Of a stretch of 49,594 bases of DNA, positions 14,244-40,787 are shown piece after piece. The stretch covers positions 1 through 49,594 of the forward strand of contig MHWB01000008.1 of assembly GCA_001823925.1 (NCBI GenBank). The letters are read 5' to 3'. A program made the position numbers and the translations under genes. Source of the DNA: Candidatus Zambryskibacteria bacterium RIFCSPLOWO2_01_FULL_39_39 (lineage in GTDB: Bacteria; Patescibacteriota; Minisyncoccia; Phycocordibacterales; WO2-35-19). The number at the start of each line of letters is the position of its first letter. Within the stretch, counting starts at the first letter, position 1. The notes beneath the pieces are model-generated. The model was not told the origin of the DNA and did no database searches. It worked only from the letters and a program-made list of their open reading frames with translations.

Positions 14244-14714
14244 ATGAGAGGCGCAGTTAAAAACAGAAATATAGCAGGGCCGGATATAATTTTTAATTCT
14301 CAAAAAGTAGAGAAGTTTATTAACTATGTGATGCAAGAAGGTAAAAAAAATACCGCCCGAAAAATAGTTTATACAGCTTTTGATTTAATCAAGGAAAAAG
14401 CTAAAGTAGAAAATCCGATGGAAGTTTTTGATACCGCTTTGAAAAATGCTGGGCCTACTATGGAGGTGCGTTCTCGCAGGGTTGGGGGCGCTAATTATCA
14501 GGTGCCAAGAGAGGTGAGGCCGGAGAGACGAACCTATCTTTCAATGAAATGGATAATAGACGCTGCAAAGAATAAAAAAGGCAAACCTATGGCCGAAAAA
14601 CTTTCTGAAGAAATAATAATGGCTTCTAAAAACGAAGGCGAGGCTATTAAAAAACGCGAAAACGTCCACAAAATGGCCGAGGCCAACAAAGCTTTTGCCC
14701 ATTTTGCTTGGTAA
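14244..14714 (+). CDS. rpsG: Small ribosomal subunit protein uS7
   Basis: A 156-residue primary 16S rRNA-binding protein of the small subunit head. Recognisable blocks are KVEKFINYVMQEGKKNTARK, ALKNAGPTMEVRSRRVGGAN, YQVPREVRPERR and the C-terminal helix ending NKAFAHFAW. The last 45 bases, encoding KMAEANKAFAHFAW-stop, occur a second time at 15835-15879 with six synonymous differences. fusA should follow directly in a normal str operon but is displaced by 1.9 kb. Confidence 0.96.
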   Translation: MRGAVKNRNIAGPDIIFNSQKVEKFINYVMQEGKKNTARKIVYTAFDLIKEKAKVENPMEVFDTALKNAGPTMEVRSRRVGGANYQVPREVRPERRTYLSMKWIIDAAKNKKGKPMAEKLSEEIIMASKNEGEAIKKRENVHKMAEANKAFAHFAW

Positions 14715-15136: not shown

Positions 15137-15174
15137 ATACACAGATTACTGACGACCGTCATTCATTTGTGTAT
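15137..15174. repeat. 38-nt imperfect palindrome, copy 2
   Basis: Reads ATACACAGATTACTGACGAC then CGTCATTCATTTGTGTAT. It abuts the TATAAT (15175-15180) of the PaaX/Cas2-like gene, the position of a repressor operator. Seven outer base pairs (ATACACA/TGTGTAT) and the GACG/CGTC core are symmetric. Confidence 0.85.
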
Positions 15175-15189: not shown

Positions 15190-15753
15190 ATGAATTTGGA
15201 GAAAAAGGTTAAAAAGGCAAATATACAAAAAGTTATTTTGGAAATAGTAAAACTGGCTGGAATTATTGGTATTGGAATGATTGCCCCAAATGTTTTGGTG
15301 GCTATGAAAAAAATGGGTTTCATTGTACACCCAAGGCAAATTGAATCAATAAAAAGATCCAGAGATGTTCTTATTGAAAGAGGTTTACTTGAAAACAAAA
15401 ATGGGCAACTGAAAATAACACAAGGAGGAAAAAGATATTTGTTCAGATACTTGTCTCTGGGGGATAATAGGAAATTAAATAAAAATAAAAAATGGGATGG
15501 AAAATGGCGAGTACTTATTTTTGATATTCCTGAAAGTAGGAGATTTGACAGAACAAATATTCGTCAAGCTCTCATCTCAATCGGGTTTATGAGATTGCAA
15601 GACAGTGTCTGGGTTTATCCATATAGTTGTGAAAATATAATATCTCTTTTAAAAACTGAAACCGAAACAGAGGAGAATGTCTTATATATGATTGTAGAAG
15701 CATTGGAAAATGACGAAGAAGTAAAAAAATACTTTGGACTTAATAAAAAATAG
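15190..15753 (+). CDS. PaaX-family protein: winged helix plus Cas2-like domain
   Basis: A 187-residue basic protein. Residues about 10-75 form a winged helix (KVILEIVKLAGIIGIGM, then SIKRSRDVLIERGLLENKNG and QLKITQGGKRYL). Residues about 100-160 match the Cas2-like ferredoxin fold of PaaX proteins: KWDGKWRVLIFDIPESRR, IRQALISIGFMRLQDSVWVY and PYSCENIISLL. Patescibacterial relatives are often labelled Cas2 or PaaX, but there is no CRISPR array or cas1 here, so a CRISPR role is unlikely. It is bracketed by two copies of one palindrome, the upstream one touching its -10 box. It may be a self-regulating repressor or the gene of a small mobile unit. The start at 15190 fits the promoter; an earlier frame would read through the palindrome. 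Confidence 0.82.
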   Translation: MNLEKKVKKANIQKVILEIVKLAGIIGIGMIAPNVLVAMKKMGFIVHPRQIESIKRSRDVLIERGLLENKNGQLKITQGGKRYLFRYLSLGDNRKLNKNKKWDGKWRVLIFDIPESRRFDRTNIRQALISIGFMRLQDSVWVYPYSCENIISLLKTETETEENVLYMIVEALENDEEVKKYFGLNKK

Positions 15754-15773: not shown

Positions 15774-15811
15774 ATACACAGATTATAGACGACCGTCAGT
15801 AATGTGTGTAA
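15774..15811. repeat. 38-nt imperfect palindrome, copy 3
   Basis: Reads ATACACAGATTATAGACGAC then CGTCAGTAATGTGTGTAA, 20 bp after the stop of the PaaX/Cas2-like gene and in the same orientation as copy 2. An outer TAGATAT ... GATATCTA arm extends the symmetry. Confidence 0.85.
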
Positions 15812-15834: not shown

Positions 15835-15879
15835 AAAATGGCCGAAGCCAACAAGGCCTTTGCTCACTTCGCTTGGTAA
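15835..15879 (+). pseudogene. Second copy of the rpsG 3' end
   Basis: Encodes KMAEANKAFAHFAW and a stop, identical in protein to the last 14 codons of rpsG. It differs at six bases (GAG/GAA, AAA/AAG, GCT/GCC, GCC/GCT, CAT/CAC, TTT/TTC), every one synonymous. There is no homology upstream of the Lys codon. It looks like the displaced gene end left when an element inserted into the 3' end of rpsG and supplied a replacement end, or an end brought from a related genome. Confidence 0.85.
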
Positions 15880-15892
15880 TTTTTATACAAAA

Positions 15893-16061
15893 ATAAAGCC
15901 ACCAGTATGCATACCAGTGGCTAGCTCTTTCCCGTACCTTAGAACCAGTTTGAACCCCAACATCTAGGGTTTGTGGACACTTGTGGCGTCCAATGTTACA
16001 GGTCCATCGTTTCAACTCGCTCACCCAAAACGAGTTCCCAGCCTTTGGATCCGAGGGAGCT
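15893..16061 (-). ncRNA. Candidate small structured RNA
   Basis: Flanked on the minus strand by a TTGACA/TAGTAT promoter and a terminator (AGCCAC...GTGGCT then TTATTTTT, 15891-15922). Inside are several hairpins: AACTCG/CGAGTT, TGGAC/GTCCA, AACCC/GGGTT, and a closing AGCTC/GAGCT. An open frame crosses it but runs on through the terminator and the rpsG remnant, so it is probably not coding. I do not recognise it as 6S, SRP, RNase P or tmRNA. Confidence 0.45.
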
Positions 16062-16067
16062 AATGAC

Positions 16068-16095
16068 ATACTACCCCCATCCAATCTCTTGTCAA
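16068..16095 (-). promoter_or_regulatory. Promoter of the candidate small RNA
   Basis: On the minus strand, TTGACA (16090-16095) is followed after 16 nt by TAGTAT (16068-16073), close to the sigma-70 consensus. Confidence 0.5.
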
Positions 16096-16106: not shown

Positions 16107-16147
16107 TTTTTGCAATTTATAAGAGAGTTGGTGTATATTTCTGAATT
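16107..16147. repeat. Direct repeat, copy A
   Basis: TTTTGCAATTTAT...GTGTATATTTCTGAAT matches 16524-16560. The two copies flank the 92-residue protein gene; each lies upstream of a minus-strand unit, suggesting a duplicated promoter region. Confidence 0.6.
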
Positions 16148-16523: not shown

Positions 16524-16560
16524 TTTTGCAATTTATTATATATTAGTGTATATTTTGAAT
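16524..16560. repeat. Direct repeat, copy B
   Basis: TTTTGCAATTTATTATATAT then TAGTGTATATTTTGAAT, matching 16107-16147. On the minus strand it includes TATAAT-like boxes upstream of the 92-residue protein gene. Confidence 0.6.
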
Positions 16561-16646: not shown

Positions 16647-18800
16647 ATGAATCGCGATTATCCATTAGAGAGAGTTAGAAATTTTGGGATTATAGCCCAC
16701 ATTGATGCTGGCAAGACTACTGTCTCCGAGTGCATTTTGTATTACACTGGTAGCCAACACAAAATAGGTGAGGTGCACGAAGGAGAGACTACTACCGACT
16801 GGATGGAACAGGAGCGTGAGCGCGGCATTACTATTACCGCCGCCGCCATCACTTGTTTTTGGGCGCCAACATATTTGAGTGTGGAAGAGCGAAAAAACAA
16901 AGATAACAAATGTCGTTTTAATATTATAGATACTCCGGGACACATTGATTTCACGGTAGAAGTGAAAAGATCAATGCGGGTGTTGGACGCGGCAGTTTGT
17001 GTATTTGATGGAGTGGCTGGGGTAGAACCACAATCAGAAACCAACTGGCGATATGCCGAAGAGGCGCAAGTACCCAGACTTTGTTTTATAAACAAGTTGG
17101 ATCGAACTGGCGCTAACTTTGAAAAATCTTACCAATCTATTTTAAGTAGGCTTTCTAAAAAAGCGGTGCGTATGCAGATACCAATAGGTGAAGAAGACAA
17201 GCACGAAGGTGAGATTGATTTACTAAAAATGAAGGCCTATAAATTTGAAGGTCAGCTTGGTGGGGATGTAATAGAAGGAGAAATACCAGAAAATCTAAAA
17301 GCAGACGCTTTAAAATACCGAGCTGAACTTGTAGAAAGAATTGTAGAAAATGATGAAGAGATGATGAATAAATATTTGGCTGGTGAAGAAATTGCTGTAG
17401 CCGATTTGAAAAAGATTTTGCGTCAGGCCGTTATTGCCAACAAAATATTTCCTGTTTTTTGCGGTTCAGCCTTAAAAAACAAAGGAGTTCAACTGGTTTT
17501 GGATGCGGTGGTTGATTTTCTTCCCTCACCTTTGGATATGCCAGCCATCAAGGGTATTGATCCAAGAAGTGGCGAAGAGATAGAGAGACATCCGGATGAT
17601 AAAGAGCCTTTTTCGGCCCTCGCCTTCAAACTTCAAGCCGACCCATTTGTGGGACAACTCACGTTCTTTAGGGTTTATTCGGGGACCATTGAATCTGGCT
17701 CCTATATTTATAATGCAACCACTGGAGACAAAGAAAGATTGGGTCGTATTGTGAGGCTCCAAGCTGACCAGAGAGAAGAAGTTAAAAAAGTATTTGCCGG
17801 AGAAATCGCTGCTGCCGTTGGTCTTAAAAGTGCCAAAACCTCTCACACTTTTTGTGACGAAAACAATCCTATTATTCTAGAAGAGATTATATTTCCAGAA
17901 CCAGTTATCTCTTTGCGGATAGAACCAAAAACTAAAGTAGACCAAGAGAAAATGGGTATGGCCTTAAAAAGACTTTCAGATGAAGATCCGACTTTCCGCA
18001 TCAAGGGGGATTCTGAGACGGGCGAGACCGTGATTTCTGGTATGGGCGAGCTCCATTTGGATATTATTGTAGATAGGATGAAGAGGGAATTTGGCGTAGA
18101 AGCCAATGTTGGTGCTCCGCAAGTGGCTTATAAAGAAACTATCACTGGCACTGCTGAAGCGGAAACCAAATACATCAAACAAACTGGAGGTAAAGGTCAA
18201 TACGGTCACGTCAAGCTAAACATTAAACCTTTGGAACCAGAAGTGGAAAATAAAAAGAAACAAAAAAATATTCACAGAAGTGAAGATTTTGAATTTATTG
18301 ATTCTATCAAGGGTGGTGTTATCCCTGCCGAATTTATCCCAGCGGTTGAAAAGGGGGTGAAAGAAGCAATGGAGCGAGGCATTGTAGCGGGCTACAAAAT
18401 GGTCAATGTCTCTTGTGAGCTTACTTTTGGTTCTTACCATGATGTTGACTCATCTGAAATCGCTTACAAGATTGCCGCCTCCCAAGCTTTCCAGGAAGCC
18501 GCTAAAAAAGCAAGGCCAGTTATTCTGGAGCCAATTATGAAAGTGGAAGTGGTTGTCCCTGAAAAATTTATGGGTGATATTACTGGACACCTATCTTCCA
18601 AGCGAGGACTAATAGAGGGTATGGATGATCGTGCTGGTCTCAAGGTAGTCAAAGCCAAGGTGCCCCTCTCTGAACTTTTTGGTTATGTTACCACTCTCCG
18701 CTCAATGACTGAAGGCCGTGGCTCCGCCAACATTGAATTTGACCACTATGCCATTGTGCCTCCAAACGTGGCCCTCTCTATTGTTGAGTCAAGGAAGTAA
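16647..18800 (+). CDS. fusA: Elongation factor G
   Basis: The ribosomal translocase, 717 residues. GTPase motifs are complete: G1 AHIDAGKTT, G2 with RGITITAAA, G3 DTPGHIDF, G4 NKLDR. Domains II-V follow, with GETVISGMGELHLDII in domain III and GQYGHVKL in domain IV. About 15 extra residues (KKKQKNIHRSEDFE) lie in domain IV. TATAAT at 16637-16642 ends only 4 nt before the ATG, so fusA appears to have its own promoter, which would be needed because the insertion cuts it off from rpsG. Confidence 0.97.
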   Translation: MNRDYPLERVRNFGIIAHIDAGKTTVSECILYYTGSQHKIGEVHEGETTTDWMEQERERGITITAAAITCFWAPTYLSVEERKNKDNKCRFNIIDTPGHIDFTVEVKRSMRVLDAAVCVFDGVAGVEPQSETNWRYAEEAQVPRLCFINKLDRTGANFEKSYQSILSRLSKKAVRMQIPIGEEDKHEGEIDLLKMKAYKFEGQLGGDVIEGEIPENLKADALKYRAELVERIVENDEEMMNKYLAGEEIAVADLKKILRQAVIANKIFPVFCGSALKNKGVQLVLDAVVDFLPSPLDMPAIKGIDPRSGEEIERHPDDKEPFSALAFKLQADPFVGQLTFFRVYSGTIESGSYIYNATTGDKERLGRIVRLQADQREEVKKVFAGEIAAAVGLKSAKTSHTFCDENNPIILEEIIFPEPVISLRIEPKTKVDQEKMGMALKRLSDEDPTFRIKGDSETGETVISGMGELHLDIIVDRMKREFGVEANVGAPQVAYKETITGTAEAETKYIKQTGGKGQYGHVKLNIKPLEPEVENKKKQKNIHRSEDFEFIDSIKGGVIPAEFIPAVEKGVKEAMERGIVAGYKMVNVSCELTFGSYHDVDSSEIAYKIAASQAFQEAAKKARPVILEPIMKVEVVVPEKFMGDITGHLSSKRGLIEGMDDRAGLKVVKAKVPLSELFGYVTTLRSMTEGRGSANIEFDHYAIVPPNVALSIVESRK

Positions 18801-29969: not shown

Positions 29970-30110
29970 TGATGGCGGAAAACACAAAGCCCGCCACCAG
30001 GAAGGCACCTTTCGGTTACCTCTACCAGAGTTTCCCCTGGTAACGCTACCAACGCCCTGATGACGGGTTTTCTATGTTGGTAGCGATTTTAGACCATGCC
30101 TCCTAGTTTG
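29970..30110. other. Structured intergenic segment in the island
   Basis: The gap 29948-30316 holds no gene. Its first part has stacked hairpins: CGCTACCAAC/GTTGGTAGCG (10 bp, with inner CCC/GGG), TACCAG/CTGGTA, ACC-GAAA-GGT and TGGCGG/CCGCCA. It could be an RNA leader on the minus strand for the 273-residue membrane protein gene, a noncoding RNA, or a recombination site. The remainder is AT-rich with no clear signal. Confidence 0.4.
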
Positions 30111-30316
30111 AAGCCAAAAGGGTTAGGTCTCTCTGCTTATTCAATTGTGAATTGATTATATATCAAATAGAGCCAAAAATATAGGCTAAACAATAAACGC
30201 GTAAAATCGCGTATAACAGTTTGAAATGCTCAAGAGCATATTTGGTATATATTTCGTAATTGAAACGCAGGCACGCTTGTATACTGCGAAATAGAGCTAT
30301 AAAAAACTAAATTCAC

Positions 30317-40358: not shown

Positions 40359-40787
40359 TGGTGGAGATGCCGATATTGAAACCGGATGCAAACAAGTTTT
40401 GATAATGCTTCTACGCGATGTATTCAACTTTATTCTGTCTTGCGACAGAAATTTGATATTTGTTCTATAAAGTTAACGAAACAAACAAATATCTAGTTTC
40501 TTATTTCAAATATAGAGCGAAACACTTTCTATATTCTAAGCCCGATTTATTACAATCATTCTTTTCTCCGGACGAAAAAAAGATGACCGTCGCTTAGGCG
40601 AACTTAATAAAATTAAGTTCTGACATAAGCGAAAGCAAAGTCATTGACTCCAAAATATGGAGAAACAACAGCTTTTGCTTGTGCAACAATGTTTTTAGCA
40701 TTTATGCTTTCCAAACTTTTAAAGAGTTTTTGGAGCTCTACCGCGCGCATTGTCAAAGAATCTCATTTGTCTAAACCTGTCATCCCC
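40359..40787 (-). ncRNA. ssrA: tmRNA
   Basis: The ends form a tRNA-like domain: 5' GGGGATG pairs over 7 bp (one G-U) with 3' CATCTCC, followed by A and an encoded CCA. Near the 5' end ACAGGTTTAGACAAATGAGA matches the conserved tmRNA start (GGTTTCGAC type). The T arm CCGGTTTCAATATCGG precedes the acceptor. A nested hairpin TCGCTTA ... GAACTTAAT/ATTAAGTTC ... TAAGCGA (40590-40632) corresponds to helix H5 holding the tag stop codon. From the likely GCA resume codon (40684) the tag would be 23 residues ending NDFAFAYVRT. It is just downstream of smpB on the same strand. Rescues stalled ribosomes with SmpB. Confidence 0.85.

Follow-up and report, generated by a model that had tools for sequence, protein, structure and literature searches.

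The spacer between rpsG and fusA in this Zambryskibacteria genome carries, on the minus strand, a candidate structured small RNA that we are confident is real as an RNA gene. The window (the whole stretch of DNA analysed, 49,594 nt) is contig C8 of an 800-kb genome in 13 contigs. As located by computation, the RNA has a promoter and an intrinsic terminator of its own, encodes no protein that we could detect, and folds into a shape that is kept in Candidatus Zambryskibacteria RIFCSPLOWO2_01_FULL_35_19 (G007, MHWA01000004.1), the closest relative with this feature. The RNA is so far uncatalogued and represents a new family, though one of a type already well known. We put at about even the chances of the fuller reading, in which this is a stand-alone non-coding RNA of ~170 nt that forms, with the G007 RNA, the first recognised members of a new structured family, borne on a cassette and acting by its fold. 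In the literature searched, little was found on non-coding RNAs of Patescibacteria. The features of the locus are as follows.

15889-16062, minus strand: candidate small RNA transcript, ~170 nt, based on the promoter and terminator positions, a folding z of -3.2 and a fold common with G007; the 5' end is approximate.
15924-16061, minus strand: conserved structured core, with closing helices P1-P3, hairpin PH1, arm P4-P5-P6, a 10-nt 3' bulge and a three-way junction.
16068-16095, minus strand: promoter TTGACA-N16-TAGTAT, with -35 TTGACA at 16095-16090, a 16-nt spacer and -10 TAGTAT at 16073-16068.
15897-15922, minus strand: intrinsic terminator hairpin, an 11-bp stem (15922-15897) followed by TTATTTTTGT; the T-tract lies at 15896-15889.
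15190-15753, plus strand: PaaX-like/Cas2-like gene, convergent with the RNA (PF20803, E 2.1e-20), with a G007 ortholog in the same place at 82% identity.
15835-15879, plus strand: duplicated rpsG 3' end (remnant), 45 bp, 87% identical to 14670-14714.
16108-16140, plus strand: duplicated fusA promoter region, copy 1 (repeats D3 and D6); copy 2 is at 16524-16555.

The sequence-only reading had described a near-consensus promoter and a terminator enclosing about 170 nt, and both were found where it had placed them, on the minus strand. Matches to generic promoter and terminator patterns are weak evidence: a generic scan returned 11 promoter-like sites and 2 terminators, with 6.1 and 1.7 expected from shuffled sequence. 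The window contains a single instance of the exact promoter pattern; 0.36 are expected with one mismatch allowed. Across nine genomes of the family TTGACA-16-TAGTAT was found 10 times as against 0 for a reversed control pattern, and a looser version was found 40 times as against 15 for its control. The RNA has the promoter and intrinsic terminator of its own that are expected of a stand-alone bacterial sRNA.

The folding energy of the RNA segment is -60.7 kcal/mol, which 1 of 200 shuffles equalled, and its G+C content is 50%, whereas 30-40% is the value over much of the adjoining spacer sequence. The core is supported by the minimum free energy (MFE) fold, by the match of covariance model R1 in G007 and by two-sided changes at pairs. 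The four or five hairpins described earlier correspond to the closing helix, the two branches of the three-way junction and the terminator. The description of the RNA as antisense holds in a positional sense, since it lies opposite the rpsG-fusA spacer, but it is not opposite any gene.

In G007 the rpsG-fusA spacer contains an ortholog of the PaaX-like gene, then a minus-strand RNA unit just before the fusA promoter. This unit comprises TTGACA-16-TAGTAT at L011:543-570, an RNA of ~180 nt and its own terminator, in the same position and orientation as in the window. The agreement of this congener with the window in synteny, promoter boxes, terminator and fold supports the earlier proposal that the minus strand bears a gene for a small non-coding RNA. 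Aligned by letters, the two transcripts score 80, no better than shuffles (82 +/- 6). Folded separately and without constraint, both RNAs have a closing helix, a short hairpin and a separate terminator, together with a long arm whose 3' side carries a 10-nt bulge. The G007 RNA is unexceptional in folding energy, 82 of 1000 shuffles being as stable.

The tree-edit distance between the unconstrained folds of the two cores is 58; over 1000 dinucleotide-shuffled versions of the G007 core it averaged 107 and never fell below 66. On repetition, the count of equally close shuffles was 0 of 800 in each direction, and it was 0 of 800 and 2 of 800 when only the interior was shuffled and the ends were kept. 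A homology search with covariance analysis had been proposed as a check, and it bore the proposal out for two members: the best match in the G007 locus to R1, a model that takes the window RNA as its single sequence and leaves out the terminator, is the full G007 core at L011:576-712 (12.5 bits, with an E of 0.011 that applies to that locus and is roughly calibrated), and two-sided changes are found at 20 of the 37 pairs in the alignment of the two RNAs. In that alignment 97% of cells are paired, as against 30-44% after partners are slid by 1-3 columns. Because the window fold guided this alignment, the covariation count leans towards that fold, and the unconstrained folds are the cleaner test; the MFE fold of G007 itself holds 26 of the 37 shared pairs, or 30 when a shift of one position is allowed. 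Covariation that preserves a common fold, the mark of a structured non-coding RNA family, is thus seen with n = 2 members. The minus strand folds better than the plus strand in both the window and G007, and the shared pairs include 10 G-U and no A-C. The complementary strand would give the reverse, and the minus strand is therefore the RNA.

We also propose, as a possible element of the model, a pseudoknot between the loop of the first hairpin and the bulge, which could pair as GGGU with ACCC in the window and as GGGAU with AUCCU in G007. Shuffled loops match this pairing in 38% (p 0.38) and 6% (p 0.06) of cases, so that it is not significant alone, and the pairs are out of register in the alignment by a shift of one column.

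The claim that the segment holds no convincing protein was upheld. Its longest frame, 63-84 aa across the RNA segment, has no Pfam match and no relative, and six-frame comparison of the window with G007 found no protein in common; the absence of a conserved protein agrees with a stand-alone sRNA. In Rfam 15, no family reached the gathering threshold for the window RNA or for the G007 copy. ARAGORN found no tRNA in the RNA segment; it also missed, in the window, a tmRNA at 40359-40787 (minus strand) that matches Rfam. Among the known RNAs that come closest is 6S RNA (RF00013), which likewise spans ~170-185 nt, has its own promoter and brings its 5' and 3' ends together in a closing helix adjoining the terminator; it works by its fold, as is proposed here. 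The sequence-only reading had raised a 6S-like identity as a point to check, and it was rejected: at E<=10 neither this segment nor the rest of the genome matches RF00013, and both RNAs have a three-way junction where 6S has a rod with a large central bubble. Qrr sRNA (RF00378) gave a weak alignment, mostly to the terminator, which scored 15.9 bits (E 2.6) where the cut-off is 50, and was set aside as a chance match far under the gathering score. The rpsL motif of Ca. Pelagibacter, as described in PMC2704228, resembles the window RNA in being a structured RNA with a bulged P1 and a multi-stem junction that belongs to the rpsL-rpsG-fusA operon. It differs in lying ahead of rpsL, and occasionally of rpsG or fusA, in gene direction, while the window RNA runs against the genes from a promoter of its own. 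LOOT RNA (RF03000) is also a structured RNA of these genomes, but it occurs in several copies per genome as opposed to one for the window RNA, and it has no match to the RNA segment. The window itself has a LOOT RNA at 30002-30129 (minus strand), and the congener G003 has at least four copies (L239, L242, L235).

Searches for further members returned only the G007 RNA. By blastn, the window RNA had no homologue among nearly 500 genomes of the order and class (98 relatives, then 384 from the class), with only chance matches of 23-25 nt, two of which were checked and both lay inside reading frames. The G007 RNA, searched against 397 relatives, gave besides itself only partial matches of 18-35 nt. 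No homologue was found among phages, plasmids and viral contigs. In a strict first look, R1 found the window only among 98 genomes, and R2, a model built with G007, found only the window and G007 among 40 genomes. Searched over 1.85 Mb, which covered its own genome (G000) outside the window (all but ~11 kb) and large parts of G003, G004, G006 and G007, R2 detected no further member; weak matches at L030, L069 and L112 overlap genes, and another lies at L235:7150. The fold was seen at none of the promoter-anchored loci of nine genomes, and R2 matched none of the other sRNA-like units from the promoter and terminator scan. As the sequence drifts so fast, these searches show only weakly that the RNA is absent outside the rpsG-fusA spacer. 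Other congeners have no copy of this RNA in that spacer, indicating that it is not essential.

The spacer runs from the end of rpsG at 14714 to the start of fusA at 16647 (1932 nt) in the window, as compared with 73 nt in the congener G004, 84 nt in the congener G001 and 63 nt in the family member G008; in other relatives it is occupied by unrelated genes. Three blocks make it up here. The first contains a small ORF and the PaaX-like/Cas2-like gene and ends at the 45-bp rpsG remnant, the second is the RNA unit, and the third is a small ORF on the minus strand flanked by the two copies of the fusA promoter region. This last ORF (94-102 aa) has its own terminator. The element upstream of fusA is conserved in loci L007, L008 and L010-L013. 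The fusA promoter is duplicated as well as the rpsG end, which makes the spacer a hotspot of insertion, with the RNA as one of its three cassettes. Between the rpsG remnant and the rpsG end of the host itself there are 6 differences, as compared with 1 (G001), 2 (G006), 4 (G003) and 4 (G007) for the rpsG ends of congeners. Since it is nearer to the congeners, these 45 bases suggest import from a relative instead of local duplication. The earlier suggestion that the RNA and the remnant belong to the same insertion is plausible to this extent, as both also lie between duplicated boundary sequences. In G003 (L007), a partial second rpsG end likewise lies behind a different inserted gene.

The RNA probably acts through its fold, most likely by binding a protein. 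We infer this from what has been kept: the shape is preserved while the helix letters and most loop letters are not, unlike in an sRNA that pairs by a seed. In the mechanism we propose, an accessory cassette that a Zambryskibacteria genus carries between rpsG and fusA would give rise to an independently transcribed and terminated RNA of ~170 nt; this RNA would work by its fold, comprising the closing helix, the three-way junction and possibly the loop-bulge pseudoknot; and it may bind a protein or complex, so regulating or sequestering that partner. By position, the PaaX-like gene is a possible partner. The kept shape, the RNA's own promoter, the accessory site and the lack of a gene after the RNA together favour action by fold over seed pairing, a leader or riboswitch, and simple antisense. 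In the window the RNA is followed downstream on the minus strand by the rpsG remnant and the convergent PaaX-like gene, and in G007 by the PaaX-like gene; a riboswitch or mRNA leader was rejected for want of a regulated same-strand gene downstream.

A trans-acting sRNA, with exposed loops that pair with distant mRNAs, is the best of the other explanations, and we consider it unlikely. The size, promoter and terminator are typical of such RNAs, a few unpaired motifs are common to the two RNAs, namely GGG in the first loop and AAA..CC(U) in the bulge, and a 22-nt same-sense similarity to the leader of the neighbouring minus-strand gene (16488-16204) beats 500 shuffles. That similarity is absent from G007, however, and nearly all of the sequence, loops included, differs between the two congeners. 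It is doubtful that the RNA forms, with the PaaX-like/Cas2-like gene or a small ORF close by, a mobile or selfish cassette, such as a toxin-antitoxin or defence-like one, in which it would be the non-coding component. The accessory hotspot with duplicated boundaries, the PaaX-like ortholog adjoining the RNA in both genomes and the fast divergence would all fit such a cassette, but Pfam gave the small ORFs of the spacer no toxin-like match, and no such RNA was seen within the flanks examined at four other PaaX-like loci, for which reason PaaX-like genes were also rejected as a general partner of the RNA. We regard as rather improbable a cis-antisense RNA whose pairing with read-through mRNA of rpsG-fusA would keep the expression of the two genes apart by interference or RNase III processing: the RNA is opposite the spacer in both genomes and a separate fusA promoter is retained in both species, but any sequence would serve this purpose, leaving the conserved fold unexplained, and relatives manage with spacers of 63-84 nt. 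A chance arrangement or decaying, functionless sequence, in keeping with the near-expectation generic scans and the lack of blastn homologues, is highly improbable, since G007 has a copy in the syntenic position whose promoter is the same and whose fold covaries.

A bolder form of the fold-acting reading, which we hold only as an outside prospect, is that the RNA belongs to a new pseudoknotted class, part of a ribonucleoprotein or a defence or addiction cassette in Patescibacteria, and is selected for shape only. If so, with congeners sharing almost no sequence, homology searches would miss such shape-only RNAs, and they could be common in these genomes. As this RNA shows, a structured RNA of Patescibacteria can shed nearly all sequence identity within one genus yet keep its promoter, place and fold, and blast and single-genome searches therefore miss such an RNA. 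The window and G007 RNAs provide a seed pair for the family, and the rpsG-fusA spacer is a place to seek accessory cassettes and possibly more such RNAs.

Several minor observations were made in the relatives. PaaX-like (Cas2-like, PF20803) genes number up to 6 per genome among the relatives searched. Repeats around ACGACCGT or a variant flank them on both sides, at 15138-15174 and 15774-15810 in the window and at L046, L047, L048, L050 and L069; these may be operators on both sides or the ends of a one-gene mobile unit. The congener G003 has a group I intron match (RF00028) at L235:10296-10596. The same genus has additional units of promoter, strongly folded RNA and terminator that match nothing in Rfam, at L235:3457 (plus strand), L216 (minus strand), L195:11843 (plus strand) and L165/L257, the last of which looks orthologous between G007 and G004. 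In the sister genus (G008), L123:1501-1690 carries a promoter, TTGACA-17-TATTAT, followed by a structured segment of ~160 nt that is very stable (-75 kcal/mol) and lies upstream of a 170-aa frame.
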